From Microbotryomycetes sp. JL201 (taxonomy: Eukaryota; Basidiomycota; Microbotryomycetes), in the NCBI GenBank assembly GCA_033819885.1, contig JAQYUZ010000023.1:124001-188000 (forward strand): DNA of 64,000 nt. Direction: 5' to 3'. The notes below the pieces were generated by a model that worked only from the letters and a program-made list of their open reading frames with translations, did no database searches and had not been told where the DNA came from. Made by a program: the position numbers and the translations under genes. Below are positions 10,388 to 63,782 of this stretch, piece by piece (the stretch's first letter is position 1; each line of letters starts with the position of its first letter).

Positions 10388-11623
10388 TCAATATATCTTT
10401 CTCATCGTCTCGTAACCCCCGCTTAAAGCCTGTCGATCTTGCTCAGAGCTGGCACTCATATTGATGAATCTGACACCTCCTTGTGGCGGTGGTGTTTGAT
10501 GTCTGCTGTTGCCGGTCGTTCTTGGCGAATGATGTCGACGTTGGTCATGAAATGAGGTTGCTGAGTAAGGAATAGTCGGAGAATGTTGTGCAGAATGACT
10601 CCTTGACTGCTTGTGATGAGAAGGCGGGGGACTCGAGTGTAAAGAACGATGCGACCGCAGACTCGAATGACCGTGGCGGTCACGATGACTACTGACAGAC
10701 TTTGATCGTACGAGACAATCACTCGATTGACTTCGTCTCGGATTGTCGGAATAATAGTCCGGTTGTGACAACGAGTTTGAGGTCCGTAGCACGCTCGGTG
10801 TTTGATCAGTATCGTTTTTGCGAGGTCGACGAGGCGCGGGTGGTCTGCTCGTGAAACCTAGTCCGATCAAATCGGTATTGGCGTACGTCTTGAGGGCTTC
10901 GGGCGTTGGTTTTTGTAGTGGCAAAGGCAGGTCCGGGGGTGGCGGGCGCGCCCCGGCCTTCGGGCTGTTGAAAGCAGAGAAAGAGCTCGGCAAGGGCGAA
11001 AGTTGCTGTATTGTTGCAGGTGGTGAAGGGTACTGAGCAGGAGACGCCATTACAGGCTGCGTTTGAAGCCAGGCATCTTGGCACGAAGCCCGAGGCGGCG
11101 TCGGATCGAGGAATGGCGAGCCAACCTGAGGCGAATAATGTTGGTAGGAGGGATATTGAAAGTTCGGCAACATCGCATTACTCTAAGAAAGACCATGTCA
11201 AGCATTTGCTCAAAGGGGCAAAGGTGTGAAAACACTTACGAGTTCGGGTGACGCAAACTCGTTTCCTGCATCACCTTTAGCACTGCACGACGAGAAGGCA
11301 GAATCTGGCCACTCGACTCCACCGAGTGAGAGATCAGGCGAGGTTGGGAATGACGAGTAAGACATGCTCGGTGATGCCATGTATGCTTCAGCTTCGGCCC
11401 GGGAGACGGCCGCCTCTGATGCTCGAAGGGCTTCTAGAATCATTTGATCGTAGCCGACACTCGAGGGGGCATTGGTGTCGTACATCCATAGCGACGAGCT
11501 GTCGGGACAAGAGCGCGCTATGTTGTTCAGAGAACCATGATCGAGTGGCGCCACGTTCAGATGAGCTTGTTCGAACGGGGCAAAGTCGTTCTCGCCCTCG
11601 TGTCCTTTAGAGCTTCCAAACAT
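10388..11623 (-). CDS. Low-complexity protein A with C-terminal F-[IV]-N-x-S...DR motif
   Basis: Exons 11623-11240 and 11182-10388, intron of 57 nt (GTAAGT...TTAG) joining FASPEL to SNAMLPNFQ; 392 residues. The protein is rich in Ser, Pro, His and Gln, with a basic His/Arg/Ser tract (residues about 260-350), and ends with GVRFINMSASSEQDRQALSG. The same ending pattern closes the next gene on the same strand (12436-13818), so the two are probably old tandem paralogues. I recognise no enzyme or DNA-binding domain. Composition suggests a regulatory or scaffold protein, which is inference only. It converges on the hypothetical gene ending at 10092; the 295 bp between them contain nothing I can name. 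Confidence 0.75.
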
Positions 11624-16748: not shown

Positions 16749-17782
16749 ATGCAGACTTCGATCCAACGGATACACTCGCTCCAAGAGTTTAAGCAAGTGG
16801 TGCGTGCTCTACAGACCAGACAGAGACTCGGCAGGTGGCGGATCGCGCTTGCTCGCCTTTGCCACCGGCACTCGCACGGATTCGACCGTGAAACACCATC
16901 CTGACATGAGTCCTCCTTGTCTATGTTATAGGTGGCCAACCCTGCACCTTGTGTGATCGAGTTCACAGCCGATGATTCCCCGTCCTGGTCAGTCAATGCG
17001 CCGACTTTGTGCTTCAATGGCACGGCATGCACGCACTGCAACACCATGCTTCTGCTGATGCAACAAAGGCTGCTGCTGTGTGTGCATGCCGTCCATTGGC
17101 TTGCTCTGGACCTGGCAAATGTCTTGCCCCGGGCACTGCTGCGCCGAGTCGGATCCGCTGACGATCGACGTCTGCTACACAGCACATACATGTCGCAACA
17201 ATATCACAGACTCGCACGAATGTATCCAGAGCTGGCGTTTTACAGCGTTGATGGACAAAGGAGACCAGTAAGTCGGCAACTGACGGAAGCGAACGTCGCT
17301 CTGCAAAACCTGCACAGTCAACACATAACCAAGCAAGTTTACCAATAAATCACAATCAACTGACCATTGCTGTCCACTCGGTCGTCCTGCAGGAAATCGC
17401 ACTCGAGGCAGGCATTGTCGTTTTGCCGACACTTACTTTTTTCGACAATGGAGTATTTGAGGACGTCGTCGTCGGTGAAGACGCTCGAAACTTGAAACAA
17501 ACAATGTCTTTGTTCTGCCCCACGCCCGTTTCGAGTCCGGGCGCATCTTCCGTAGCAACTTCGTCAGACGCCCAAACACCAAACTCGATCTACGGTGGAT
17601 TGACGAGCCACAGTAACCTCGCTTCTAATCACCATCTTTCAGACAAGCACGGCGCAGACGCGTCGCAGCAGTCATTCTTTCAATTCGATCCGTGGTCATC
17701 CCCGAACGATCATCCGTCAGAACGAACGTCGTACGCCGACTACGACTCTTCTCACATGGAGCATCTCCGAGTAGCTCGATAG
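16749..17782 (+). CDS. Thioredoxin-fold protein with degenerate active site and C-terminal extension
   Basis: Four exons: 16749-16796, 16932-16987, 17183-17267 and 17393-17782, giving 192 residues. The joined sequence follows the thioredoxin fold: SLQEFKQ, then CVIEFTA (beta strand 1), RLARMYPELAFYSVD (helix and strand), RRPEIALEAGI, VVLPTLTFFDNG with the cis-proline, and EDARNLKQ. Where thioredoxins have CGPC, this model reads SPSC (residues 32-35), so only the second cysteine remains and ordinary dithiol chemistry is unlikely. Intron 2 is 195 nt, long for this genome, so a missed micro-exon could change the active site. About 90 residues of Ser/His-rich tail follow the domain. It may be a redox-inactive binding protein; role unknown. 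Confidence 0.65.
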
Positions 17783-25442: not shown

Positions 25443-28376
25443 ATGGTCATGTGACTTGCTCGAGTTTGAGGGGGAAACACTGATCCACGGTGACGTAATT
25501 GCAGGTCATTGGCGCGGCAGGACCCGCCATCGTTTGCGCAACGGTCAACTCAGAGTCAGACGTCAGACCACTCAGCCGCGCTGGCGCCATCCGAGTTGCA
25601 TGTCCGGCCGCCGTCGCCGCAGGCCGCCAGCGCTCGCAAACCGCTGCCGTTCCCGCTCGTGGACCCGTACACGGACCCAACGTTCGAGCTGTACGACCCT
25701 CATGGCTTCAACTTGAAGCGCCGACCGAGCACGCGCTCGACGAGCACTGCATCGACCGTAGACGGACCCCAAGCGCAGCAGTCGTCACAAACAAACGCCA
25801 AGCACGGCATTGTGGCGACGGCGAGCGTCTCGAGCAGCGTCAAGGTCGACATTGATCTTGCGAGCGAGCCCATTGGCGATGCCGTCTCAACACAAGAGTC
25901 GTTTGCGATGCAGGTGAGACCAGCACAGTCTGCACAAGGCTGCCAGCGCCCTAACACTTGACCTCGCATAGACCTCACCCATCATGTCACCGTCACACGC
26001 CGCGACTTCGCCTATAGACATCTCGGCAAGCCCGTCATTCAGAGCCATGTCCGTCCCAAGCTTGAGCCACGAGGAACCGATTCCAGAAGGCATCGCCGTC
26101 GGCGCGCCACAGCCTCAGTCGTTCGGCAGCAGAGCTCCTCAACATGCATCGCTCGGACAAGGAGCTCCACCTCGCGCTCTCTCTGCCCTCAACAAGCTCA
26201 GGATAGGCTCGAGTGGCTCATTCAAACCAAACTCACCCTCGCCGCAACCAGTCGACTCGCCACTGTTTGCGCCGGGCTACTTTACGCCGTCGCCCTCGGG
26301 CTACAAGACGCACTCCAGAGCTCCGACGAATGAATCAACTGCGTCGACTCTTAGTTCGCCGGTCGACCAACCACGCTCGAGAACGTCGTCCATGTCGACA
26401 AGCACGGGCATGAGTCCAGCTGCTTCGTTCCTATCTTCCTTCTCGCGAGACAACTCGGTCAACATGTCTGGCCGGTTCTCTGCTTTACTGGACGGTGACG
26501 ATGAAGGGTTCATAGTCGCAGGATACACGCTCGGTCGGGTGCTTGGCCACGGCGGATTCGGCATCGTGCGCGAAGCGACAAAGAACGGACCCGGGCCGGG
26601 CGCCGGAGACAAGGTTGCCGTCAAGATTGTCAAGCACAAGCAAACGCCTTTGGCAGAGCCAGTTACCGACCCGCTCAAACGTAGTGTCAGTGGATACCGG
26701 ATTCCAAGAGACAGGCGCGCCAGTCTCGTGCAAGAACGACATCGTAGCACGTCCTCGCCCGTACCTGCACACCTAAGAGGCGATGGAGGATCAGCAATGG
26801 ACGCCGATGGAGACGCGTCGCAGCTGTCGGCGTCGATCGGCGCTCTGCCTTCGGCGGTGCCACCACCACCCGCAGAGCAGCAAACCCTCGTCGAAGCTCT
26901 ACTCCAGCGCGAACTAGACCTTTGGCGCCAATTGCCCCCGCATCCTCACATAGTCCAGCTGATCGGAACTCACAAATCCGAAGACTATACATATGTTTTC
27001 ATGCCGCTTTGCGAGGGTGGCAACTTGCTCGACTTTGTCAATGCCGGTGGCAACGTCAGGCGACGCTCCCACTCGCGTACAACATCATCAGGCGGTAGTT
27101 CAAACACCTCGATCGGTATCCTGGGCATGTCAACGATGACAACTGTTGAAGAACATAGGCAGAATCCGAAAGGCTTGCCATTAGACATGGCGCGCATCAT
27201 CTTTGCCCAGATCGTGGAAGGGCTGCACTACTTGCATCAAGAAGCGGGAGTTACCCACAAAGATATCAAGCTTGACAACATTCTGTGCGACGAATGGAAA
27301 GCCGGCGTTAATGGCACTTGGAAGATTGCAGATTTCGGTCTGGCAGAATCTGCTAGTTCCGGGTCGGCCCTCCAAACGGCAACAAACGCCGCCACCGAAA
27401 GCCTCAAGTCCAAGGGCGTCACCCTCTCCAAACGTCGGCATCCTGTACAAGCAGGCACTCCCCTCGCCGCCCTTTCACGAGCGAATTCGCTTTCGCGGCC
27501 CGGTTCTGCGAAAAAAAGCGACAATCCTTTGCCCGTCATGGACTTGATTGACGAGCATCTACACCCGGCTGGCTCTCTACCCTATTCTCCTCCTGAACAA
27601 ATGAAGAGTCCGATCCCTTTGTTGGACCCATCTGTCGACATTTGGGCACTCGGATGTGTCTTGTACGCCATGATTGAAGGCTCCTTACCGTTTCAAGACG
27701 AATTTGAACCCAGACTGAGGACAAAGATAATCAAAGGCCAGTGGACTGTGCCTTCGAGGTTGCGGCCGGAGGAAGAAGGAGGACCGTTGGGAGAGGAAGA
27801 GGCGAGGTGTCTCGAAGTGTTGAGAGGATGTTTGGAGGTTGATGTGACAAAGAGGTGGACGATTGTCGAAATCAGGAACAGTAGATGGCTCAAATGGAGG
27901 GGGTCAGTTGTGCTTTCGATTATTGGCTGCGCACGAGGGCTGATTCTTGTTCTCCAAAACAAAGGCCAAGCGAGCAGCCTCGTGGTCGAGCTTCAAGGCG
28001 AGGCAACGTACACGTGTTGACTCCGACAGAGTCTCAGTCTGGCTCGAGAGGACATTCGTCGTCCCAATCTCGATCGCGTCAACGTCGTACTCAGCCAAGG
28101 TCAACTTCACGATCCTCTTCGCACGTGAAACATCGCGGAGTCGATGATAGAACTCGCAGTCTAGAGATCAGAGAAGAAGAGAGAGAGGAGCGCAAGATGA
28201 GATGGGACAGGAGTCGCGATTCGGCGAGGTCGACATCGACGAGCAGTCGAAGCACTTCGAGCTCGCGCAATAGGTCCATGGAACGAGGCTCACATCATTC
28301 GAGCTCAGACTCGTTGAACCTGCGAGACGTCAGCAGAGAGACGGAAAGGCTCGGGCGATTATACGAGCCATATTGA
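25443..28376 (+). CDS. Serine/threonine protein kinase with long N-terminal region and inserts
   Basis: Exons 25443-25450 (an 8-nt start exon, tentative), 25505-25913, 25972-27902 and 27965-28376 sum to 919 residues. A Ser/Pro-rich N-terminus precedes the kinase domain: glycine loop GHGGFGIV, VAVKIV lysine, RELDLWRQLPPHPHIVQL, HKDIKLDNIL catalytic loop (Lys in place of the Arg of HRD), DFG in KIADFGLAES, and SLPYSPPEQ with DIWALGCVLYAM. All catalytic residues are present, so it should be active. About 80 residues are inserted between the VAVK lysine and helix C, and about 70 between DFG and the PPEQ segment. After the domain comes an Arg/Ser-dipeptide-rich tail (residues about 790-919) like those of splicing-related proteins. 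I cannot name the subfamily. Confidence 0.88.
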
Positions 28377-32136: not shown

Positions 32137-33846
32137 TCATAGCAACGAGTCCATTCGTCGACCTGATAAAGCACGCGTACGCAAGGAGAGCAGGACCATC
32201 AGAATGTGATAAACAACAAAACGGAACCTCCAAAGGTGACTTACAAACTTCAAGAACGGCAGCGACGACTTCTAGACTGAGCTCGCGCAAGCTCGCATTC
32301 TCTGCCGTCTCTCCCGGTTGTGGGGCCATTTCCGACCTGACGAGCCTGTTGATTTCTGCCAGATTTGCGGATTCTGCGCTGGCGGCACTCGACCCTGCGC
32401 CGATTCCTTTACTTTGTGCGCCGTACCTGATGACGCCAAATGGCCACTGGCTGTATTCCGCCAAGAGTTCGTCGCATTTAGCGAAAGCTGCTTCACGCGC
32501 GTCATAAGACAAGTGAACGAGCGCGTTCTCGAGCACATTGGCCGCGAAAGCGCAGCAAACCATCGCGACGGCTCGAACAGTCCGGTATCTGACGTTTTCG
32601 CCGTACAAGTTCGAGGTTGGGACGGCGGCTGTTCGAGTTGTGAGGATGCTGAGTGTCCGCCTGAGCACGTCCTCTTTGAATGTCGGGTCGGACACGGGAT
32701 GCGTCGCCATGTCAAACAGCAAAAAGTTGCGTTTCTCTGTGCGCAGGACTCCCTTGTCGACAAGACCTTTCGCCAGACGTTCTCGGACTTGTTTGAGCTG
32801 GTACCCGATCTTCATGACATTCCACGTCTCGCCTGTTTGACCATGAACGCGTCATTGCGTGTAGCGTCAGTAAGTATAGGACAGCGCTCGCTCCTCGAGA
32901 TTTCAATGCTGACCTGACATGAGGTCGATCCAAGTGCCGACACTCATGCGCTCCGACACCTTCATCATTTTCAAAGCCTCGTCCAGCAAGACTTCACCCG
33001 TGAGCCTGTCGTCAACAACTTCGATGTACCTGGCACACCACGCGGATGAGCAAGGGATCCCATTTGAACGCGATCTTTGCTTAGAATGGCCATACCTGTC
33101 TGCGAGCGGAAACCGTCTCCGGTTTGGATCTCTGACCATGGCGACTCTGTGACGGAGTGCGAGTTCGAGGATGATGCAACCTCTGAGCGTGTACGAAATG
33201 TTATCGTTCCAGAATGAGAGATAGCCCTGATGATAGAGACAGTGTCCCGGGTGTCAGCTGAGGCGAGTCTCGAGTGCACGAGTGCGCGCGCGTCCCGAGT
33301 GTTGAGCGAGGCGAGATGCGAGCGATGGGACGCCCGAGGTGACTGCGTGCAGTGACCGAGGCAGGAGTTTCTGAACAAACTGCCATAACCTGGCGGCCGC
33401 GCGTGCGGGCAGAGTGCGTATGCTCTACTTGGACGTGCTCGGTTCCCCCGCCGTTCCGTCGACGCGCTCAGTTCACGGGCTGTACTGACCTGCTTGTCCT
33501 TGAGTCCGAGCAGCAGGACCTCCTCCATCAATGTCAACTTCGGCATCATGCGCTCCTCTTCCGTCTCGAGGTCTCGCTCGTCGTACGCAACTCTGTGCCC
33601 GCCGCCGCCGCCTGCCGAGCGCGCTCCTGCTCCAGCGCCGGCCGACATGGGCGATTGCGGCCTCGAGCTGGAGGCAGACGACGATAGCCCGCCTGCTGTC
33701 AATGGCTTGGAGGCCGAAGCTGATGCGCCGTTGGCGAGCGTGGGCGAGTGCGGGCCACCACCACCGCCGCCATTGTTGTACTCGCCCGCACCCGCTCCTC
33801 CACCAGCACCACGCCGGCGTGACAAGCCTGTCGTCGTCGACGCCAT
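32137..33846 (-). CDS. VPS74: VPS74 / GOLPH3 Golgi PI4P-binding adaptor
   Basis: Adaptor that binds PI4P on Golgi membranes and keeps glycosyltransferases there by linking them to COPI. Exons 33846-33490, 33226-33096, 33029-32914, 32832-32245 and 32162-32137 give 405 residues. Clear GPP34 stretches are [83 protein letters not shown] and the terminal CRRMDSLL. The first 85 residues are a Gly/Ala/Ser-rich disordered stretch longer than in yeast. Intron 1 is 263 nt. It is divergent from CCT6, with 170 bp between start codons, which probably serve as a shared promoter. Confidence 0.96.
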
Positions 33847-34016: not shown

Positions 34017-36503
34017 ATGCAAGTCAAGTATCGAACGAAACAAGTGTACTCTTATTGACCAGTTTGCGCGTGCCAGGTCGGCGCTCGAGCTGCTCAATCC
34101 AAAGAGCGAGAGCATCAGGCGCAACCAGGCGTTCACGATCAATGTGAGCCTGTTTGCGCGAACGCCACTCCCTCACCAAGCCCGTCAACTTACAACGAAT
34201 CAATTGTGCCGCAGGTCACTGGCGCCATCGGCCTCGCCAATGTCGTCAAGAGCAACTTGGGTGAGCCAACTCGGAAAACGAAATGCTCCCATCCGGCACC
34301 AAGCCAGCTCCTGCGCACTAGTTTGTCAGCGCTGTCATGAGCTGGTGACCCCGTCAACGCGTTGGGGTGGACTTTCACACGTTCGACAGCAACGTTGCGT
34401 CGCGACCGCGCGTGTGCGCCTGCAACGCCGACGGCACAATGTTCTACACGCACAAGTACATGCGCGACGACTGACTCTACTTTGACGCTGCGCAGGCCCC
34501 CGTGGCACCCTCAAGATGCTCGTCGACGGCGCAGGTCAGCTCAAGATGACAAAGGACGGCAAAGTGCTCCTGTCAGAAATGCAGATCCAGGCGAGCACAT
34601 TCACGACTCCTCGCAGCTGACGACACAGCTGACAGACTGTTTATCTGCGCCGACGTGCTATCAGAACCCGACAGCGGCGTTGATTGCTCGAACGGCGGTG
34701 GCTCAGGACGAGACGACTGGCGACGGCACCACCAGCGTCGTCTTGTTGGTCGGTCAGTTCGCAAAGCGGTTTACCTCTTTATGCTCGAGGCCTCTGTGGC
34801 TGACAGTTCTGGTCTCCAGGCGAACTGCTCAAGCAATGTGAGCGCTACACGCAGGAAGGCGTCCACCCACGAGTGCTCGCAGACGGCGTCGACGTCGCAA
34901 AGAATGCCTTGAGCGACTTCCTGGAGCAGTTCAAGGTGCCTTTCGAGGCCGGCACTACACCGGCCCACGAGACGCTTGTCAACGTCGCATACACGTCACT
35001 TGCCACCAAGGTTCACAAGACTTTGGCCAAGAGTCTGGCGCAATCGGTCGTCGACGCTGTCCTGGCCATCAGACGAACAAAGACCGCAGATTCGGTCGCG
35101 AGCAAGCCATCAGAAGGCGTGACGGCTGGCGAAGGCGCTCAGGAGTTTGAGCCAATCGATCTGCACATGGTCGAATTGATGAAGATGCAACACATGACGG
35201 ACGTCGACACAAAACTGATCAAGGGACTCGTTCTCGACCATGGACCAAGGCATCCGGACATGCCGAAGCGACTGACAAACTGCTTCATCTTGACCTTGAA
35301 CGTCTCGCTCGAATACGAAAAGACGTGAGTTGCGCTTCTGATTTCTTTCAGCTGAGCTTCAATCATACCAAAATTGACATTGCCCCGTCGTTTTGCAGCG
35401 AGGTCAACTCTGGTTTTTTCTACTCGTCCGCAGAACAGCGAGAAAAGCTCGTCGAGTCGGAGCGCAAATTTACAGATGCCAAAGTCAGAAAGATCATCGA
35501 GCTCAAAAAGCTCGTGTGCGATCAACAACTGGACAAGGACGGCAACGAGATTGGCGAAAAGAAAAACTTTGTCGTCATCAACCAAAAAGGCATCGATCCA
35601 TTGAGTTTGGACATGTTGGCCAAGCAAGGAATCATGGCTTTGAGGCGAGCAAAGAGAAGGAACATGGAGAGGTTCGCAACGTTCCCCTTTCTAGCATAGA
35701 TTGGCCAGAGCTGACCTTGTCATGCAGGCTGCAACTCATCTGCGGCGGCACTGCTCAAAACTCTGTCGACGACATGACTCCGGACGTCCTGGGTCATGCC
35801 GGTCTCGTTTACGAGCACACTCTCGGAGAGGAAAAGTTTACGTTTGTCGAAGAGGTCAAAGATCCCAAATCGGTCACGTTGTTGATCAAGGGTCAGTCTC
35901 GGAGCCTCTTCAAGGGGAGAAAACGCTCACTCGTGATGTGCCGCCAACAGGTCCTAACGCTCACACAATCTCCCAAATCTCGGACGCCGTGCGAGACGGC
36001 TTGCGCTCAGTCAAGAACGCCCTCGAAGACAAAGCGCTCGTGCCCGGTGCGGGCAGCTTTGAGATCGCAGCACACAACCACTTGGTCGAAGTCGTGAAAA
36101 AGAACGCCAAAGGTCGCGCAAAGTTGGGCGTTCAAGCTTTTGCCGATGCTCTGCTCGTTATTCCGAAAACGTTGGCCACGAACGCGGGTTTGGACGTTCA
36201 AGATACGATCGTCGCTTTGCAAGACGAGGCGAGTGAGGGACACGTTGTCGGTTTGAATTTGGCGACGGGCGATCCTTTGGACCCAGTGACGTGAGTTCTG
36301 AAATGCGCCAGTGAGAGTGTAAGAACGAGCTGACGAGCCGTTACGGGGTGCTTCTTATGTACAGAGAGGGCATTTGGGACAATGCGCGAGTCAAGAGGTT
36401 GATGATCCATTCGAGCGCCGTCATTAGCTCAAATTTGTTGATCTGCGACGAGATGATGCGAGCAGGTCGACGAATGGGCGGTGGTGGTGGTGGACCTGAA
36501 TAG
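34017..36503 (+). CDS. CCT6: CCT zeta subunit of the TRiC cytosolic chaperonin
   Basis: Ten exons sum to 575 residues: 34017-34027, 34077-34143, 34215-34260, 34496-34590, 34665-34752, 34820-35324, 35399-35671, 35728-35891, 35951-36290 and 36365-36503. The product folds actin, tubulin and other cytosolic clients as one of eight TRiC subunits. Signatures: [17 protein letters not shown] at the N-terminus, [36 protein letters not shown] (ATP site), [40 protein letters not shown] and LNLATGDPL. The first exon is just 11 nt (M-Q-V-K). The intron at 34591-34664 starts with GC (CAG|GCGAGC); no GT near it keeps the frame from EMQIQ to NPTAALIAR. Confidence 0.98.
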
Positions 36504-37626: not shown

Positions 37627-38072
37627 ATGGTCATACGCGAGAGCCATGTCATGTCAGCGAATACGCAGCGCGAACAGTTCGACATATGTTGTAGAGGCAG
37701 ACGTCATAAACAACGCATGCTGCTTCAGGACGGCGGATCACAGAGTCCAAGATCATGGGGATTGTGCTGTGTCTCAGAGGTGGAAAGCTCCGGCGAGGAT
37801 CGTCGACGAAGGGGAAACAGACACTGGAGGACGGGAAACGAAATGCCGCGTGGTGGGCATACCGCATAAGGGCCGGAGAAGCATGACGCCAATTATAATC
37901 AATCTGTAAAGCGCACCGCGGCAAAAACTACTTGCAATCAACCGCATTATGAATGTAGATGCACCGTACTGAGCAAGCTGTGAGGTTTCAGGTCGACTAT
38001 TTCTGGGCCCCACACGGCCTCCACATGCCAGGCCTTGCCCTCTTCTTCTTCCTGTCGCGCGCGTCTCCAGCC

Positions 38073-39526
38073 ATGGCCACATCAGTACAGATCGGAGACA
38101 AGTCCTACCCTCGACCTGGTTACGGAGCAATGGGTGAGTTGCTGCACATGAATCATTGGACCCGACGCGGCGACTGAGGGCAATGCGAGCTGACGTAGAT
38201 CGACCTGCACGCAGGTTTGTCTGCATTCTACGGGACGACTGATCGCGAAGAAGCAAAAAAGACGCTGCGCAAAGCAATTGATCTGGTCAGCTCAGAGTTG
38301 CAGCATGGGACCGCTCGCCGCGCTCACACTCCGTCGGTGCAAAGGGGGTCTCGATCTGGAATACTGCCGACATGTATGGCAAAGGCGAGAACGAGAAGCT
38401 TATTGGTGAGGTGCTGGCAAACAAGGAGGACCGCGACAAGTGAGGTCGTACGCGCTCAGGCACTGGAAGTCTAAAACTGACACCTGCTTAAGAATCTTCC
38501 TCATCTCGAAATGGGGAAACAAATGGGGTGAAGGAATAGAGTTCTTCAAAGTCGATGGATCGCCAGAGTTAGTGCTTCACAGACCAGCCGACAACAAATT
38601 TGTGACAAAAGTATTGTACTGCTCAGATATTTCAAGAAAGCTATCGATGCTTCGATCGAGCGCCTCGGCTTCACGCCAGATGCTTACTTACTGCACCGCA
38701 TTGATAAGGATGTGTGAGCCCGGCGACCATTGTTTGTGATCAACAGCTCAGTGCCGATTCGCAGTCCGGTCGAAGAATCGGTGCAGGCAATGGAAGCCGC
38801 ACGCTCTGCCGGCAAAACGAAATACATTGGCTTGTCCGAGGTAGGTCTACTCGCGGCTCTAGCTGACCATAGCTGATCGGAGGCTATCAGTGCTCGGCAG
38901 ACACCCTGAAGCGCGCCAACAAGGTCGCCAAGATTGATTTCATCGAGATCGAGTACTCACCGTGGACGCTCGATTTTGAACAGAATGGCGTGCTTCAGTT
39001 GGCGAGAGAGCTTGGCATTATTGTTCTCGCTTACTCACCGCTCGGTCGAGGCGAGTCGTTCTGATCCCTCTCGCAGATCGCAGTTCTGACGTCTCTTACG
39101 CAGGCTTTCTCACCGGTAAAGTGAAACCCTCAGATCTCGAGAAGGGCGACTTCCGCAACGCACTACCTCGCGTACAGCAAGATGTACTCGAGCACAACAT
39201 GAAGATTGTGGCTGAGCTCGAAAAGATTGCCAAGGAGAAAGGCTGCGAAACCAGCCAACTTGTTCTCGCGTGGCTCATGGCGCAAGGAGACAACATTGTA
39301 CCTATTCCAGGAGTGAGCTGCACACTACAAGAAGCTGCGTGACTCCTCTCATTGACACCCGGTTCGATCTCAGACCACTTCTGCCAAACGTCTCGAAGAG
39401 AATTTTGCTTCGCGCGAGGTCAAATTATCGTCTGACGACGAAAAGCGCATTCGCAAAGTCATCGAGGATAACAGACCTAAAGGCACGCGCTACACTGAAG
39501 CTGGCATGAAGTTTCTCGACGAGTAA
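38073..39526 (+). CDS. Aldo-keto reductase, tandem copy 1
   Basis: NAD(P)H-dependent carbonyl reductase of the (beta/alpha)8 AKR superfamily, nearest in style to fungal pyridoxal-reductase/YakC-type members. Readable exons encode KSYPRPGYGAMG, LSAFYGTTDREEAKKTLRKA, SIWNTADMYGKGENEKLIG, IFLISKWGNKWGEG, ERLGFTPDAYLLHRIDKD, SAGKTKYIGLSE, FIEIEYSPWTLDFEQNGV, IIVLAYSPLGR, GFLTGKVKPSDLEK and NIVPIPG. In the catalytic tetrad the Tyr, Lys and His are present, but the usual Asp (D-T-A) is Asn (N-T-A). First of three tandem copies on the same strand; the first exon of each is exactly 61 nt. The last exon ends at the TAA at 39524-39526. Confidence 0.9.
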
Positions 39527-39837
39527 TGCAGCGGTCGCTCACAAAGATAAAGTTGACAATAATTGCGAAGCTTGGGACCCGAAATGAAATGATGACGAAC
39601 AAAGTAATCATTTCCTTTGATGAGATGCATCGAACGGAGCGGACTGTGGTTGCGTCACCGGACGTCCGCGCCTCCACACGCTCATGGCTTGTCCGATACG
39701 GGCGCTCCTCGCATGTCCGATGCGCTTCTCGCATGTCCAGCAGGCCTTCACAATGACGTTGGATGCAATTTCAGCCTCTTTCCTACCCACCTCTTCATTC
39801 TCCTTCCCGTTCTCCAACCTCGATATCGGTTCACAAC

Positions 39838-41281
39838 ATGACCTCACCTCTCGTTCTTGGACTGAAAACATTCGCTCGGCCCGGCTTTGGCGCCATGGGC
39901 GAGTCCATCGCAGTTCTTGGGTTCGATGATTTGCCACATTCTGATTTCTCCTGTTCAGGCTTGTCGTCAGCCTACAACACCGTTGATCGCGATGAAGCCA
40001 AGAGAGTTCTGCGTCAAGCGATCCAATTGGTATGCAGCAGTGGCCATTTGGTCCGGGGAGTTGACGAGGCTTTACTGATCGTCCTTCATATTGTGACGGC
40101 AGGGAGTAACGATCTGGGACACTGCTCCTATGTATGATTATCTTTGGCGAGAGGCCTTTTGGGAGGCTCACCCAATTGCTTGCAGATACGGACAAGGGGA
40201 CAATGAAAAGTTGATCGGCGAAGTCCTTGCGGAGGAGCAAGATCGTGCCCGAGTGTTCCTAATCACGAAATGGGGCGTTCGTACGACGAGCGGATTCGAA
40301 GCTGACGGTTCTGCAGAGTCAGTCGTATCGTTGTGCTGCATGAAACTGACTCATCACTGAGCGCCTTCGCATTGGCACAGATACTGCCACAAATCGATCG
40401 AGGAGTCTATTGACCGACTCGGGTTTACCCCGGATGCCTATCTGTTGCATCGCATCGACAAGAACACGTGAGATACTTACCCTGGTCCTCCTGAAACCCA
40501 CTCACGAACGACGCGCAGGCCAATTGAAGAGTCGGCCAGAGCAATGGATGAGGTCCGCAAAGCAGGCAAAACAAAATACATTGGGTTGTCCGAGGCGAGT
40601 CAAGTGTTCTGTCGACTATACGTTCGACTGACTGTGCCAATCAGTGCTCGGCAGAAACTCTGCAACGTGCAAGTCAAGTTGCCAAGATCGACTTCATCCA
40701 AATTGAATATTCGCCATGGACCCTGGACTTCGAGCAAAACGGAGTGCTCGCGCTCGCAAGGAAGCTCGGTACAATTGTCCTAGCATATTCGCCTCTCGGA
40801 CGTGGTAAGCGACATGTCGTGCTCTTCGCCAACGAGCCAACCTTCTCGTGGCATGCAGGGTTTTTGACCGGAAAGGTCAAACCGTCGGACCTCGAAAAGA
40901 CAGACTGGCGCAACTCTTATCCACGGGCTCAGCAAGACGTACTCGAGCACAATATGAAGATCGTGGCCGAGCTCGAAAAGATTGCTAAGGAGAAAGGCTG
41001 CGAAACCAGCCAACTTGTTCTCGCGTGGCTCATGGCGCAAGGAGACAACATTGTACCTATCCCAGGAGTGAGCTTCACAATACTAGCGACCGAGCGACGT
41101 CTTTCATTGACGCCCGTTCCGATTTCAGACGACTTCGGCAAAACGACTCGAAGAAAACTTTGCCTCGCGTGAGGTCAGCTTGTCGCCAGACGACGACAAG
41201 CGCATTCGCAAGGTCATTGAGGAAAATAGACCGAAAGGGACGCGCTACAATGAAGCTGGCATGAGAACTCTTGACGCATGA
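39838..41281 (+). CDS. Aldo-keto reductase, tandem copy 2
   Basis: Paralogue of the copy at 38073-39526, with the same exon order: FARPGFGAMG, LSSAYNTVDRDEAKRVLRQA, VTIWDTAPIYGQGDNEKL, VFLITKWGVRT, DRLGFTPDAYLLHRIDKN, AGKTKYIGLSE, FIQIEYSPWTLDFEQNGV, GFLTGKVKPSDLEKTD, NIVPIPG and TTSAKRLEENFASREV. This copy keeps the canonical Asp (D-T-A) of the AKR tetrad along with Tyr, Lys and His. Intron 1 (39899-39958) starts with GC (ATGG|GCGAGT), where copy 1 has GTGAGT and copy 3 has GTCAGT. It also has an intron inside the TAP-IY codons that copy 1 lacks and copy 3 shares. Ends at TGA 41279-41281. Confidence 0.9.
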
Positions 41282-41852
41282 GCGGCATATCTGAGTCCAA
41301 ACGACTTTCGGCCGTCGATGTTCCCGCCATACATTCCACACTCTCATTATCGGCCGATTGAAGGCGATACAACGCTGAAATACAATGAGGTTTATTCAAA
41401 AATCACAATGAACGCTCGAACAGCAGTTTGAGGTGCCGAAATGACCCAGCTGGATTGACCTTTGGCGGGGGTTGGGCGACAGTGGTCAAATTCTTCTGAA
41501 TGGCAGTGACTCGTCCCTACCGGTTATCCTGACTTGACGTGTTGACAAAGTCAGCCATTACGCAACTCTGATTCGGATTGGTTTGAACTGGAATCCGAGC
41601 CTCGCACGACCCTCGCCTGGCAGGCTCGGTGTTGCCAGCTGCCAGGCCGAAAGGCCGCCGCGTCAGCTCCCGGCATCCGCTTCGTGACTGACAAGTGGAA
41701 TTGACGCGGCAAATATTGATACTCCAGAGCTGAGCCTCCACCTCGAGCAAGGGCCTCCACTTTGAAAAGCAATAAATAGGTTCGGCAACGATGCTTCATG
41801 CTTCTTCCTTACCATTCATTCGCAAGAACAACTGTGGCTGGAACTGGAGAAT

Positions 41853-43388
41853 ATGCCCGCGACTATCAAGATCGGAAACAAGGTATACCCTCGGCCTGGC
41901 TATGGTGCTATGGGTCAGTGCAATCGTGGACAATCGTAGAAAACGTGTTATTCTGGATGCAAGGGCGGATTACTGAGAGAAAGGAATATAGGGCTCTCGT
42001 CTTTCTACGGCACGATTGATCGTGAAAAGGCGAAAGAAACCTTGCGTCATGCTATTGAATCGGTAAGTCTGCATTGCGGAGCCAATTTTAGTCAGGAGCT
42101 CATGTATTTTTTCAAACTTGAAGGGGGTTACCATTTGGAATACCGCATCTATGTCAGCTTCGGGGAAAAAGGGTCGGTTGCGGCGCTGGATGATTCTAAC
42201 CTACCGTGGCCTGTACGTTGTAGGTACGGGGAAGGCGACAATGAACGTTTAATCGGAGAAGTGTTGGCAAACGCAGAAGAAAGAGAAAAGTAGGCAGCCG
42301 GCCTACCTCACTCCCGCGCGGGCCACTGACTTGGGTTCTTGGCATACTGCAGGATTTTTGTCATCTCAAAATGGGGAATCACGTGGGAGGACGGCTACAA
42401 TGTTGATGGATCTCCGGAGTCAGTACATCATCTTGCTCCTTGACAAGATCGCAGTCAAGTGACAAGTTACGGCCGGGCAGATACTTCCATCAAGCAATCA
42501 ACGCCTCTATTCAACGTCTCGGTTTCACGCCTGACGCATACTTGTTACACCGCATGGATAAGACACGGTGAGTTATAGCCGAACGCTTCCGACTTTTAAC
42601 CTCACTTTCATTCTCGGATTCAGCCCGATAGAAGATTCCGTCAGAGCAATGGACGAGGCGCGTCAAGCGGGCAAGACCAGGTTCATCGGATTGTCCGAGG
42701 CGAGTTGGTCTTCGGAAGGGCGAGCCCGACCTGACCTGACCTATTTGATCTCAGTGTTCCCTCAAGACGCTCGAAAGGGCTGTTGGAGTGGCCAAGATCG
42801 ATTTTATCGAGATGGAATACTCACCATGGACCCTTGACATTGAGCGGAACGGCGTTCTCGCTCTGGCCAAAAAGCTGAATATCATCGTACTTGCATACTC
42901 GCCTCTGGGTCGAGGCAAGTCGCCGCGTTTCTGAAAAGCGAGAGGATGAGCTGATGGAAGACCATCAGGTTTTCTGACGGGCAAGGTGAATCTGGCAGAC
43001 CTTGAAGCTAATGACCTGCGTCACACCATTCCACGTGTCCACGCCGACGTGTTCGAGCACAACATGAAACTTGTTGAGGAGTTCGACAAGGTTTCGAAAG
43101 AAAAAGGGTGCCAGACGAGCCAGATCGTGCTAGCATGGTTGATGGCCCAGGGCGACAATGTTGTGCCTATCCCTGGGGTAGGTTTGCATCTCGGAATTCC
43201 AACACCTTGTGCTCAGTGTCATGTTTCGGCAGACGACGTCGCCGCAGCGTGTCGACGAAAACTTTGCGTCGCGCGAGATTGTCTTGTCAGCCGATGACGA
43301 AAACCGGATCCGCAATATCATCAATAATAACAGGCCCAAGGGGGAGCGCGTGGCTGCCGAGCACGCACATTTTTTCGATCAGGACTGA
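41853..43388 (+). CDS. Aldo-keto reductase, tandem copy 3
   Basis: Third and most divergent tandem AKR: MPATIKIGNKVYPRPGYGAM, LSSFYGTIDREKAKETLRHA, VTIWNTASMYGEGDNERL, IFVISKWGITWEDG, QRLGFTPDAYLLHRMDK, AGKTRFIGLSE, FIEMEYSPWTLDIERNGV, IIVLAYSPLGR, GFLTGKVNLADLEAND, NVVPIPG, ending with a Ala/His-rich tail unlike the other two. Like copy 1 it has Asn for the first tetrad Asp. The intron splitting ASM-YG (AT|GTCAGC...TAG|G) is at the same place as in copy 2. An AT-rich AATAAATA at about 41769 may serve as its promoter element. Substrate unknown. Confidence 0.88.
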
Positions 43389-47838: not shown

Positions 47839-49465
47839 TCAATCCAATCCATCGGGTTCAGTGTAGTATGAAGCTGACCCCGTGCCTGAGCTGGACGTCA
47901 ACTCTGGTTGTAAAAAGTCGCTCAGCGTCAATGGTCGAATCTTGAAAGTCTGTTGATATCACATTCCGGAAATGTTAGTATCTCCCGATGAGGATCAGAG
48001 AGCACTGCAGGGAGACTGACTCCAGCTTTGACGGCATCGAGGTCAACTTGACCGTCAACTTGATGTTGCCTCATGTATTCACGTATTGGAACCATTGCAG
48101 CGTTGCGGCATACTTCTTTGAGATCCGACCCAGACATGCCGTCCGTTCTCCTCACGAGTTGATCGAGCTGGAAAGACGGATCCAATTTAATGTCTTGGAG
48201 CATCTGCTCGCGCCAGAAAGTCGAAGCGTGAGAAGACAGCACGGTCGAGCAAGATAGGTAAAAAACTGACAATGTTGAGAATGTTGCGTCTCTGAGTCGC
48301 GTCCGGCAACTTGATGGAGAATCGTTTGGGCATGCGCCTCAAGATGGCCGCATCAATATCATTAGGTCGGTTTGTCGCACCGAGGACGAGTATCCGAGTG
48401 TCGTCGTTGGTTGACAAGCCATCCCAAAGACTAGTCGTAAAACAATCAGCTCTGTCGAATAGGCAACGGCTCTCGTGCTCACGTCATGAACTCTGCTTTC
48501 CTGCGGACGGTGAATTCAAGATCAATTGCCGCATTCACCTTTGATTGCGCCTTCTCACATCATGTTGGTAACTTCATGGTCACTTCTGCTTCTCTCGCGC
48601 ATAAATGAGTCAATCTCGTCGATGAAGATGATGGACGGCTGGAGTTTTCTTGCCAGACTGAACAGGCCGGCGACGAGCTTGTTCGATTCGCCAAACCACT
48701 TGTCTGTCAGTGATGACACTTTGACATTGATGAACGTCGCGCCGCTCTCTTTCGCCAGAAACTGTCGGATGACAGATTCGGTTCAGTGGCACTGGTCGAT
48801 CGCGACGGGAGTCAACTTACTTTTGCGAGCATCGTTTTGCCGCAGCCTGGCGGGCCGTAGAGTAAAACGCCCTTTGGTGCTCCGAAGAGGCCTGCAGCCG
48901 ATTCAAACACTTGCGGATAGCACAGCGGAAAGATGACTGCCTCGCGCAACTGATTGATGATCGGGTCCAGCCCTCCAATGTCTGCGCGAGCACAGCTCAC
49001 GGTCAGAGACAAGCACGAATCAAAGAAAGACTGAATCGTGCCACCTGCCTTTGAAGTTTGTCGTAATGTCGTCTGGATGAACGACTTCGGACGCCATCGC
49101 CTCTTCGTGCTCGTTCAAGTCGAGCTTTGCCAGATCGAGGCCGAGTTTGCTCAGCGCCTTCTTGCTCTTTGACTTTTGCTCCTTGCGCTTAGATTGCTGT
49201 GGGTCGAGCGAGCCCATGACGGCCTGGACATGGTCGGCGAGACGGGCGCACGTGAAAACGCGGTCAGCACGCCCGTACACAGGCAATATGGGTGCTCAGG
49301 AATGTGGAACTTGCCTTAAATGCTACGTAGAACAGCACCTGAGACGCTGCAAACAGAGCCACGTCCGTCACAATCTTGCGCGTCCTGCGTCGCGCGACCG
49401 TATGTCAGCCAATGCGCAATACGGAGCGTCCGATTGTGGACTTACTGAGGTGATATCGGCGCCAT
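47839..49465 (-). CDS. MSP1: MSP1/ATAD1 outer-membrane AAA+ extractase
   Basis: AAA+ ATPase anchored in the mitochondrial outer membrane that pulls out mislocalised tail-anchored proteins. Exon 1 (49465-49446) and exon 2 (49384-49315) encode MAPISPQTRKI plus the membrane segment [15 protein letters not shown]. Then come a Lys-rich linker, [20 protein letters not shown], Walker [28 protein letters not shown], Walker [55 protein letters not shown], and a tail ending YYTEPDGLD. Two introns use GC donors: 49224-49314 (AAG|GCAAGT) and, less certainly, one beginning at 49048 (AAAG|GCAGGT), chosen because it restores the exact family spacing before DIGGLD. Confidence 0.95.
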
Positions 49466-56439: not shown

Positions 56440-57369
56440 ATGGAACTCGAATCTGCTTCGGCGTTGAGCCACGTTGCCAAGCTCGGCAAGGCGACCGAGT
56501 TCTCGCGCTGGTCACAGAAGATGCGCCTGTACTTTGAAGGTCATGAACTGTGGCCTGTCGTATCTGGACAAGAGCTTGCACCCTCGGAGACTGCATCGGA
56601 AGAAGAGCGCAAGGCGTGGCAGTGGAAGGAAACGAGCGCGCAGTGGACGATCGTCAACATGATCGAAGCGCCCGTTCAAGACGTCGTAATCCACTGCGAA
56701 TCGGCCAACGACATGTGGGATACTATCGAACAATGGAGTCAAGACAACGGAGCTGCCAAGGTTTTTGACGTCTTGTCCGAGCTTCTCACCGTGCGCTGCA
56801 ACGCCATGACAAAGGTCAAATCTCATTTTCAACATGTTAAAGACCTCTCTAAAGACCTGTCGGAGCTCGGATGTGCCGTGTCGGACAATGTGCTGGCCGT
56901 CATCCTCCTTCACTCCATCCCTCAGCATTGGATTACGACCAAGACTGTCGTCGAATCCATCCAGTCGTTCAACGAGTTGCCAACGTCTGATCAACTGGCC
57001 CAAACTATCGTCTACAAGATTGAAGAGTACCGTCGTCAGAACAAGGAGCACGACGTCCAGTCCGAAGTTCAAGACGGCGACACGGCCGATGGCGGTTCGC
57101 CACAGCAAGAGACCAAAATGCGCACACCTCGTGGACCTCCCAAGTGCTATAACTGCGGTAGGATCGGACACGTGTCGGCGTACTGTCGTTCTCCAAGGCG
57201 CGGTGGAGGAAGGCAGTGGCAAGGATCGCGCGGGGGCAGCGGATTCGGACGTGGTCAACATCGCGAAGAGCAGCCTCAGAACGGTCACGATCACGACACG
57301 TCGGGTCAAGTTGATGTGACGGTTCGTCCTGAAGAGCACACCACCGTTCAAGTAACCCACGAAGAGTAG
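56440..57369 (+). mobile_element. Copia-type (Ty1/copia) gag ORF, gag part only
   Basis: A 309-codon open frame from the ATG at 56440 encodes a UBN2/retrotransposon-gag-type domain (SRWSQKMRLYFEGHELW, ESANDMWDTIEQWSQDNG, LLHSIPQHWITTK), a CCHC zinc knuckle CYNCGRIGHVSAYC and an Arg/Gly-rich nucleic-acid-binding tail. The gag frame looks whole. No protease, integrase, reverse transcriptase or terminal repeats are visible within the window, so it is either an isolated fossil of a copia element or a gag taken over as a host gene. A TATA-like CTATATATT lies at 56297-56305, about 135 bp upstream. HSP78 ends 122 bp downstream on the other strand. Age cannot be judged without terminal repeats. Confidence 0.85.
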
Positions 57370-60406: not shown

Positions 60407-63400
60407 ATGGACGACAGCACTGCAGCAGGTCACGTGCTCCTGCTGCCGACTCTGCCGTCGTCAACGGCATCAACGCGTCAGCCATGGCACCCGTACTGGC
60501 AACCAACCGGCACGACAATCACCCTCAGCGGTTACCAGCTGTGGGCAGTCGAGCAGAGGCGAGCAACACGCTGGCGAGACCGTGCAAGCGAGGCTGACAC
60601 GCAACAAGTGCCGCAGGGTCACCGACAGGCACTCTATCTTGCCAGTCATTATCGTCCTCACAGGCGAAACCACTGATCAGGCAAGTTGCATCGCACAGGC
60701 GCCAGAATCTCCCTCCGCTTCCTTCGGTGATCCTTTGCGCTAACGTTCATCCCACATCAAACCAGATCGAGGTCGACGAATATAGTTTCGCTGCAGCATC
60801 ATCTCTGACCCCAGACGAGCAGCACCAAGCATGGTCTGACCTTCGAGCAGTTTTCAAAGCTTCAAACGCGCGCATCACTCAGGTCAGCTGACGAAGCTGT
60901 GCATTGAAAGTGCAGATGACACTCACGCTCACTTGGCCATATTCAAGGCTCGCGACAGCTCAGGTCACTTGCCACTGACAGCCCTGCCATCTCTCGACCC
61001 AAGCTTGTCGGTTGTGCAACTACCCGGTGGCAACTATCGCAAAGCAGCACCTCTGCTTTATACAAATATCAATCTACGCAGGCACGCTCACAAGCTCGCC
61101 ATCTCTAGCTCTTACTGACATCTGCTCTTGGGACAGGCTCGGTCTCGGCGGTCGAAGTGCCCTCAGGCTAACGGCACCGACGTCAGTCTCGTGCTGTCGT
61201 TGCACAGCGACGCAGTGCCCTGATCATCGCATTGCTCTCGCAGTGGGGCACAGCAACTCAACTTTCGACAGACTTACAAACTACAGGCCCCAGCCCGCAA
61301 TTCGTCCAACAGCGACCACAATTCGTTTGAAACTACCGTGCTTGATTTTGTCCAGCTTGTTCAACACGCCCTAAGCTTGTTCGGCCTCGGCCCCGTCGTT
61401 CATCACGCAAGTGATACGACTGTACCATCTACCGTTCACGGCATCCATACTTCCAATCCACTTGCTCGTCAGGTCCTCGACGCGCTCAACACGTCACTTT
61501 CAGAACCCCTCGAGCTGCAAAAACCTTTGCTGGACGATGGCGATGGCCTGCTCTGTGACATTACGCTAGGCGCCCTTGCCGTCTTTAAAGAAGAGTTTGC
61601 TGGTCCGATCTTGCACGTGCCGGCCGTCGATCAATCGGCCATGAGCTCGGCCGTGCTCAGCTCGCTACTCAGTCTCGTCATTGGGACAAAGGCGAAGATG
61701 CTTGCGCTTGGAGCGTCAGGCGTGAGCTTACAAGTTCATTCCGCCAACGATTTACAATGCGAGGGCTAACATGTCGTCTCGCGCAGGTGCCTCGTGATCC
61801 CTTCAGCAGACGCGAAAAATTTCTTCGATCTGTCCGTGCGTTTCAGGTGAGGTGGACCCGTGGCGCAGACAAGAACTAGAGCTTCTCTGACGCCCGCTCA
61901 TTCTACGTAGCACATGTATCGCATTTCGCCAGTGGCTTCCGTCTTGACTCGCTCTTTCCTCCTGGCGCTCGGTAAGACGTATTCACGTTCGCGAGGCGAA
62001 GTCGGCGGCGGTGCGAAAGCGAAAGTATCCAGGGCTTTGAGAGGCAAGTTAGATGCAGGCTTGTCCACTCTCGGAGCTGCGGCAACGAGCGTAACGTCGA
62101 GCGCGTCGACAAGTGGAGCACTGAAAGACGATGATTTCGCGAATTCGTCTCTGACTGCAACGACCGGCATATCGAGCAAGACCCTCGGTGCAAGCCGTCA
62201 GAACGGAGCTGGTGACGACGCGACAGAGACAAGTAACCTCGAAACTTTTCTGAACGAGGTCGCGAAAGGAGGGGCAGGCAGGACCGTCGCTCGTTTGTGG
62301 GGACTGCGAGAAAGTCGCAGAGATCGCCGAGAGGACGAGCGTGATACAGAAGGCATCAGAGAAGGGCTGAAATTGAGGCGCAAACGAAATAACGAAAGTG
62401 GACGAGATCAAGACACGGACGGTGAAGGTACTGAACCAGGAGCGACGACGAGCGAAGGCGAATCGACAGTTCACGGGTTTGGTCGAAATGTGTTTAAAGG
62501 CGTCAAGCAGCGCGCCGGAAGAGCAGGTCGCTTGCTCGGAGACAATCTCGGGTGGGACATGAAATTATTTTCGGTGTTTGCTTCCCCGATGCTGATGTTG
62601 AATGCTCGTTCAGATTCACAGAGAGCCACTTGACTTCGGTGCCTAACACATCCCATAGAGACCTGAACAAGCTGGCGCCCAGCATTACAATCTCGTAAAT
62701 TTGCCCGCTTCGCGCACCAGAGCATCGACTGATTTTGTGCCGATGTAGCTCGGACAAGAGCAATTCTCGACACACTTCAATCGACGTCGACAGTCACCCA
62801 TCTCGTTCTGGCTCGCTTGCTACCCGTCTCGCGTCAGCATTGACGGCCGACGCCGGTCTAACGGCAAGCGTTCGCCATCGCTTGTCGCCGTCGCCCAATC
62901 ACAGGTCTCGCTTCTCTTCATTGGACGCGAACGACGACTCTGAAGTATGCGACGCACCACGTGTCACATTGCCTCGTAGGGTTGTCAGCGACATGCCAGG
63001 CGACCTGCCTACGCTTGCCACGCTCGGATCCGCGATCGATCTGGACGAAAAAGTCACAGACCGTGAACGTTTCCGATTGAAGAGCACGGCAGGATATGTC
63101 AAGCTAGAGCGCAGACATACTTTCAATATTCTACAAGATGCGCCAGAGCCTTCGCAGGTGCTTTCAAGGTTTGTCGTGGTCGAGGTTAGCTTGAGTCTTA
63201 CTGTTGCTCATCTGGACTTTTGGACTCACGCGCAGGAAACGTCTCGTGCTCGATGTCAACCTACGATCGACATATCACAAACTCCGTTTTCGAGAGCAAG
63301 ACCTTGCCGACATGGTTTCGGCCTTGCAGGCAAGTTTTTGTTATTCGGCAAATCGTCTTTGAAAAAGTCGGGATCTGACCATGAATTTCTGCTTCTGCTT

Positions 63401-63782
63401 CTCATTGGATAACCATTAGACGATTCGAGATTCGTTCGATAAAGCGATCGCCTCGATCGAGCCTCTGGTCAACAAGAAGGCTCAAACTTTACTCGTCTTG
63501 TCCGACTCTGCTTCGTCCTTGACGACTCGAGCCGAAACGTATTCTCAACCTCAGTCGACAGTGTCAAAATTATCAATAGGCACATCGAGGTTGTCGTACG
63601 CTCAATCAGTCGTTGACGAAAAATTGGTCGACGTTGTTGATTTTGACAAGCTTTTAAGATCAAAGGTAGGCCCAGGTGGTACGATTGACAAAGGTGTCAG
63701 AGGCGTAAGTAAGACAGAGAGTGGATTGAGATCGTTTGTTTCGAGCTTTGAATATTGGAAGGCTTGGTTTGGATGGGGTTGA
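60407..63782 (+). CDS. STB6/STB2-like protein, predicted Sin3-associated, with many GC-AG introns
   Basis: About ten introns. Joined exons read WHPYWQPTGTTITLSGYQLW, VEQRVTDRHSILPVIIVLTG, DEYSFAAASSLTPDEQHQAW, SLDPSLSVVQLPGGNY, NINLRRLGLGGRSALRLTAP, LDFVQLVQHALSLFGLGP, DDGDGLLCDITLGALAVF and VPRDPFSRREKFLRSVRAF, an order I know from fungal STB6-type proteins; the yeast STB2/STB6 pair was found as Sin3 binders. The second half is charged and helical (KRLVLDVNLRSTYHKLRFRE, TIRDSFDKAIASIEPLVNKK) and ends FEYWKAWFGWG. Four donors are GC: 60559, 60681, 61082 and 63330. Exon joins near 62570-62750 remain open. Function inferred from family only. Confidence 0.8.

Follow-up and report, generated by a model that had tools for sequence, protein, structure and literature searches.

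The GT that begins an intron is among the most constant signals of eukaryotic genes. Across fungal annotations, introns with a GC donor and an AG acceptor (GC-AG introns) have a mean share of 1.009% (PMC7072748). Higher shares are described for three algae: Aureococcus anophagefferens, 39.6%; Micromonas pusilla, 22.2%; and Chlorella sp., 7.7% (Iwata and Gotoh, PMC3033335). In Aureococcus and Micromonas the 5' end of the U1 small nuclear RNA (snRNA) is canonical, and the cause was called an enigma, with RNA modification or U1 proteins under suspicion (PMC3033335). Among fungi, Meyerozyma guilliermondii has about 6.67% "major non-canonical" splice sites (PMC7072748), and the bglA genes of two basidiomycete yeasts contain one GC-AG intron each (PMC9142197). 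The present subject is the GC-AG introns of the fungus Microbotryomycetes sp. JL201, and in particular those in a 64,000-base stretch of its DNA (contig C16, positions 124001-188000; hereafter the window).

A sequence-only reading of the window had named nine GC-AG introns and proposed that GC donors far exceed the one in a hundred usual elsewhere. That proposal holds. GC-AG introns appear to account for about 8-10% of all introns in this fungus, over several contigs, and in the best donor context GC exceeds GT; the average for other fungi is 1.009%. In the literature on GC-AG introns, as far as its available text extends, no fungus with a share near 10% was found. The fungus resembles the algae in its many GC donors, and its share is close to that of Chlorella (PMC3033335). 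The three algae are, however, given as the most G+C-rich species studied there (Aureococcus 69.5%, Micromonas 65.9%), whereas G+C along the window runs from 50 to 57%, about 54% overall. This fungus, with a genome of 17.15 Mb in 92 contigs, was the one analysed directly; other fungi enter through published figures.

Introns were predicted by a gene finder trained on the data alone, with coding statistics and models of donor, branch site, and acceptor on both strands. GT and GC were permitted as donors, and AG alone as acceptor; one donor matrix serves both GT and GC, and weak sites are missed. The sample comprised 28 sequences (290,844 bases): the window and 27 other loci, of which seven were fetched for chaperonin matches and 20 are arbitrarily placed 10 kb stretches, from four contigs. 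(Loci L007, which overlaps L004, and L009, which holds the U1 gene, were excluded.) Support for single introns was gauged by forbidding each in turn and recording the drop in score, in nats; this was done for all 67 GC introns and for 120 random GT introns of the 604, and a loss of at least 3 nats is termed confident.

The finder converged on 671 introns, short and many (median 62 bases): 604 with GT and 67 with GC (10.0%). The arbitrary stretches contain 41 GC introns among 451 (9.1%, about one in eleven); the window, 19 among 133; and the chaperonin loci plus flanking DNA, 7 among 87. Confident losses were found for 44 of the 67 GC introns and 92 of the 120 sampled GT introns. Scaled to 463 GT introns, this gives a confident-only share of 44 in about 507, or 8.7% (95% interval 6.4-11.5%). 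At least one GC intron occurs in 47 of the 124 intron-bearing gene models, and a confident one in 33, so that a predictor restricted to GT would get one or more introns wrong in 27% to 38% of these models. In length, branch motif, and acceptor the GC introns are ordinary, and they are distributed over many genes and several contigs; the CTRAY branch motif, which the finder itself scores, is present in 81% of the 67 GC and 65% of the 604 GT introns. Their GC and AG ends, closer donor consensus, and branch motif are features of U2-type introns. Fungal, animal, and plant GC-AG introns of the U2 type have the same ends (PMC7072748), and known GC donors likewise fit the rest of the consensus better (PMC2490688).

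Might these introns be an artefact of gene models or of sequence errors? GCRAGY words are frequent in the sample (1354, both strands), and some low-scoring GC calls look wrong. Moreover, a crude count of donor hexamers followed by a branch motif gave 0.089 for GC, 0.032-0.112 for 14 other dinucleotides, and 0.243 for GT; the GC excess is small there because GCRAGT is frequent elsewhere, and the count was replaced. Decoys within the finder give a different answer. When 14 other dinucleotides were each started at a prior of 0.10, they finished at 0-11 introns, and GC held 66-68. When 11 decoys were fixed at that prior, each took 7-22 introns, 0-4 of them confident, compared to 67 and 44 for GC. 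The TC decoy, with 1435 motif words in the sample, yielded two confident calls. DNA and gene structure thus show GC introns far above decoys, and in many genes. Because decoys at a prior of 0.10 also give calls, rarely confident ones, perhaps 10-20 of the 67 GC introns called could be spurious, but few of the confident ones. Together with homologous GT/GC swaps, two seamless conserved junctions, and genome-wide distance controls (all described below), these results make an artefact highly improbable as the explanation.

The GC share depends on the remainder of the donor. (Positions are counted from the exon-intron boundary, marked by a slash.) Sorted by the number of matches to U1 at -2, -1, and +3 to +6, GC donors make up 6 of 94 introns with at most two matches, 9 of 279 with three, 17 of 216 with four, 25 of 71 with five, and 10 of 11 with six. 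Across the same classes, confident GC introns number 0, 2, 15, 20, and 7, and GT introns 88, 270, 199, 46, and 1. The 44 confident GC introns have -1G in 84%, -2A in 66%, +4A in 91%, and +5G in every case; for the 604 GT introns, the figures are 50%, 37%, 67%, and 96%. Position +3 is A or G in all 44. By contrast, donors with +3C comprise 149 GT (a quarter of the 604) and a single GC (1/150). The commonest donor of all, GTCAGT (92 of 671 introns), has this +3C, a mismatch to U1, and GTAAGT ranks merely sixth.

A count over the whole genome, made without the finder, required an eight-base donor followed by an exact CTGAC at 18-48 bases. The control for GC patterns was CTGAC at the wrong distance (118-148 bases), and that for GT patterns was the reversed pattern. 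AG/GCAAGT with a branch site occurs 186 times versus 51 at the wrong distance, an excess of about 135; AG/GTAAGT occurs 41 times, with 14 in the control (excess 27-41). With G at +3, AG/GCGAGT gives 205 versus 67 (excess about 138) and AG/GTGAGT gives 147, with 18 in the control (excess 129-147). Therefore, about four-fifths of donors are GC in the context AG/GYAAGT, and about half when +3 is G. Several of the pattern matches on contig C21 fall in mirrored pairs on opposite strands, with coordinates that sum to 218,853 (for example, 19047 and 199806). C21 as a whole thus looks like a single large inverted duplicate, either biological or an assembly fault, and a few matches were therefore counted twice.

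Within the window, the finder predicted all nine introns of the sequence-only reading unprompted and with exact ends, along with ten further GC introns. Each of the nine indeed starts with GC and ends with AG, the MSP1 pair lying on the minus strand. Aldo-keto reductase is abbreviated AKR in the list, and losses are in nats.

60559 to 60616, plus strand: GC-AG intron GAG/GCGAGCAA of the 882-residue protein gene; loss 4.8; a lower-scoring GT route is available.
60681 to 60765, plus strand: GC-AG intron CAG/GCAAGTTG of the same gene; weaker, loss 2.8.
61082 to 61136, plus strand: GC-AG intron CAG/GCACGCTC of the same gene; loss 4.3; lower-scoring GT route.
63330 to 63419, plus strand: GC-AG intron CAG/GCAAGTTT of the same gene; loss 5.7; also found in the genome pattern scan.
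2952 to 3017, plus strand: GC-AG intron CAG/GCGAGTAT of a ClpX-like gene (Pfam AAA_2 and ClpB_D2-small); loss 4.3; lower-scoring GT route.
34591 to 34664, plus strand: GC-AG intron CAG/GCGAGCAC of CCT6 (CCT zeta); loss 5.6; lower-scoring GT route; junction homology.
39051 to 39103, plus strand: GC-AG intron of AKR copy 1; loss 7.8; copy 2 has GT here and copy 3 GC.
39899 to 39958, plus strand: GC-AG intron of AKR copy 2; loss 2.7; GT in copies 1 and 3.
40595 to 40644, plus strand: GC-AG intron of AKR copy 2; loss 3.8; GC in copy 3 and GT in copy 1.
42700 to 42754, plus strand: GC-AG intron of AKR copy 3; loss 5.6.
42915 to 42968, plus strand: GC-AG intron of AKR copy 3; loss 7.1.
48982 to 49048, minus strand: GC-AG intron AAG/GCAGGTGG of MSP1; loss 15.6, the largest of the 67; lower-scoring GT route; junction homology.
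49224 to 49314, minus strand: GC-AG intron AAG/GCAAGTTC of MSP1; loss 3.4; junction in a weakly aligned segment.
509 to 571, minus strand: GC-AG intron absent from the sequence-only reading; loss 6.6.
693 to 749, minus strand: GC-AG intron likewise absent from it; loss 5.9.
27970 to 28037, plus strand: predicted GC-AG intron, doubtful because the predicted preceding exon has five bases; loss 5.0.
10731 to 10794, minus strand: weak predicted GC-AG intron, doubtful; loss 2.4.
17115 to 17182, plus strand: weak predicted GC-AG intron, doubtful; loss 0.7.
33227 to 33291, minus strand: weak predicted GC-AG intron, doubtful; loss 2.2.

Forbidding the GC donor costs at least 3 nats for seven of the nine, all but 39899-39958 and 60681-60765. 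The assertion that no GT alternative keeps the reading frame proved too strong: a lower-scoring GT route is available for five of the nine, and the 60 nucleotides of 39899-39958 lie in open frame. Homology supports two of these junctions. Removal of the CCT6 intron reads seamlessly into EMQIQHPTASLIA of solved CCT zeta, and the junction of MSP1 intron 48982-49048 is seamless against TFQDIGGLDPL of solved Msp1-family sequences. The junction of 49224-49314, however, falls in a weakly aligned membrane segment, where homology does not settle it.

Paralogues provide a second line of support. Three tandem AKR genes (37959-43388) share intron positions with changing donors. In copies 1, 2, and 3, respectively, these are: residue 20, GT, GC, and GT; residue 152, GT, GC, and GC; and residue 205, GC, GT, and GC (copy 3 numbering). 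(At residue 205 the finder overlooked the GT of copy 2, which was identified in the sequence directly.) GC and GT therefore replace each other at homologous introns, and the trio forms a natural series for the study of GT/GC turnover. Outside the window, the GC junctions of HSP60 (L005), of a Clf1-like gene (the third call in L019), and of an acyltransferase (L017) are presumably right, judged by what is typical of these families; the first two GC calls of L019 gene 2 (losses 1.5 and 0.8) are, on the same basis, presumably wrong.

The 882-residue gene (60407-63782) has four GC donors among its eleven introns, and regulated splicing of particular genes such as this one had been offered as an explanation. 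In human, nematode, and Arabidopsis, GC donors are associated with alternative splicing (PMC2490688), so they might mark regulated or alternatively retained introns here also. Taken alone, and before correction for its selection, the gene has a P of 0.018 at the overall GC rate or 0.052 at the window rate. When the 67 GC labels were permuted over all 671 introns, though, some gene received at least four in 66% of 5000 shuffles (P 0.66), so that the cluster is within chance and not special. The GC introns are spread over 47 of 124 models; their lengths are not shifted, and multiples of three are hardly more common (32.8%) than among GT introns (30.3%). Regulation of particular genes is thus an improbable source of these donors. 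The name "STB6-like" given to this gene went unconfirmed: Pfam, the one library searched, gave no match to its protein at E values up to 0.001.

What sets the ratio of GC to GT? Outside predicted genes, TA is scarce (2896, versus 7138 for CA), GCA outnumbers GTA by 2255 to 919, and GCAAGT outnumbers GTAAGT by 53 to 13. The ratio of GC to GT donors in AG/GYAAGT (about 3.3-5 to 1) is near this balance. Most simply, T and C at +2 would be close to interchangeable in AG/GYAAGT, where mutation would set the ratio, and selection would keep T in weaker contexts, above all with +3C.

This suggests a model, which we hold to be probable, in which U2-type introns with GC donors are removed as normal splicing through a lowered threshold for U1 pairing, while mutation favours C. 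The threshold of pairing with U1 (then with U5 and U6) that a 5' splice site must reach would lie below that of most eukaryotes. If -2, -1, and +3 to +6 are paired, a C at +2 facing A7 of U1 would do no harm as the sole mismatch; with a further mismatch at +3 it would. Above the threshold, the ratio of T to C at +2 would drift to the mutational balance, which here would favour C before A, given that TA is scarce in the genome. About as likely as not is the stricter proposition that the spliceosome of this lineage is blind to U versus C at +2 when the other positions pair, which would leave +2 nearly neutral and governed by mutation in the best sites, with a +3 mismatch restoring the demand for U.

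Several points weigh against this model. The introns are predicted from DNA, through coding statistics, homology, and paralogues; for 23 of the 67 GC calls the loss stays under 3 nats, and some of these are apparently wrong. The shared donor matrix and the missed weak sites favour GC calls in strong contexts and yield negative correlations among donor positions. The whole-genome counts are free of this bias, but they cover AG/GYRAGT with an exact CTGAC alone. Finally, with +3G, GT keeps about half of the donors, above the mutational balance (GCGAGT to GTGAGT, 47 to 12); +2 is therefore not fully neutral there, and some preference for T persists.

A different account of the context dependence is that the most complementary donors are selected against, in that a full match to U1 would be released too slowly and +2C would weaken overly strong sites. 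All six other U1 matches occur in just 1 of 604 GT introns, versus 10.0 expected by column shuffling (P 0.0004), and in all 5000 shuffles the number of matches varied more than it does among the GT introns (variance 0.76 observed versus 1.17). Mean predicted U1 duplex energies are -4.4 for GC introns, -5.5 for GT introns, and -8.3 for GC introns read as GT in silico. Yet part of this correlation arises because the finder misses weak introns, and the GC to GT ratio in AG/GYAAGT barely exceeds the 53 to 13 background, so that selection for C is not needed. Such selection seems rather unlikely as the main cause.

The lowered threshold corresponds to the relaxed U1 recognition that the sequence-only reading had envisaged for this lineage. 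The spread of GC donors and their dependence on U1 pairing agree with it; the one U1 gene found is canonical. This gene begins AUACUUACCUU, has the canonical 5' end AUACUUACCU, which does not match the unusual donor, with A at position 7, and has an Sm-like site. Its score of 31.1 bits is under the family gathering score of 69.5, yet it spans the whole model. A DNA search of the genome for a second U1 copy gave the self-match alone at E up to 10, a search that a diverged copy may escape. The ACAGAGA box of U6 is intact as well. Changed snRNAs were accordingly rejected as the cause, and the change that lowered the threshold would probably lie in a protein of the U1 small nuclear ribonucleoprotein (snRNP) or in snRNA modification, since the U1 5' end and the U6 box are both canonical.

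A variant U1 RNA, or another snRNA, might still pair directly with GC donors. There is precedent in the GA-AG introns of the copepod Eurytemora affinis and the tunicate Oikopleura dioica, likewise lineages that accept another base at +2, for which a U1 isoform variant has been proposed (PMC7072748). The base is different there, and in this fungus no variant U1 was found beside the sole gene, with its A at position 7. A dedicated variant should, moreover, also take GC donors with +3C, which hardly occur. We regard this explanation as quite improbable.

Among U1 snRNP proteins, a candidate place for the change, U1-C differs from its human counterpart at two residues: Thr11 is Val, and Tyr12 is His. 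In the human U1 structure, U1-C residues Thr11, Tyr12, Thr14, and His24 bond the donor backbone; human U1-C tunes affinity for several mismatched sites; and the affinity of human U1 snRNP is higher for donors with +2C than for those with +2A (PMC4383343). Two observations in the available text of that report speak against U1-C as the cause: Ala at residue 11 or 12 of yeast U1-C has no growth effect, and +2C is not among the mismatched sites named as favoured by human U1-C. The two residues are thus a possible lead only. One LUC7 locus was found. The U6 gene (C63, 52479-52661) contains a 67-nucleotide insert right after ACAGAGAA that starts with GTAAGA and ends with TTAG (L032, 1548-1614). Because the U6 consensus is continuous without it, the insert looks like a spliceosomal intron beside the catalytic box.

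Three aspects appear to be new: the GC share in a fungus of moderate G+C content; the predominance of GC over GT in the best context; and how steeply GC use depends on +3. Dependence on +3 and the full context was measured in this fungus and is not encountered for the algae in the available text of PMC3033335. With its small genome and moderate G+C, the fungus offers an opportunity to learn how the +2 rule is set, which Iwata and Gotoh left unanswered for two of the algae.

The predicted coding exons of the sample were also compared with expectation from trinucleotides. On the sense strand, GTGAGT occurs twice versus 18.6 expected, and GTAAGT three times versus 6.1; GCAAGT (88 versus 84.6) and GCGAGT (67 versus 55.4) show no shortage. 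Exons thus seem to avoid cryptic GT donors and not GC ones, although the finder's calling of GT words as donors may contribute. Elsewhere in the window, an intronless predicted protein (56440-57369) is one that we take, by eye, to resemble a retroelement gag.

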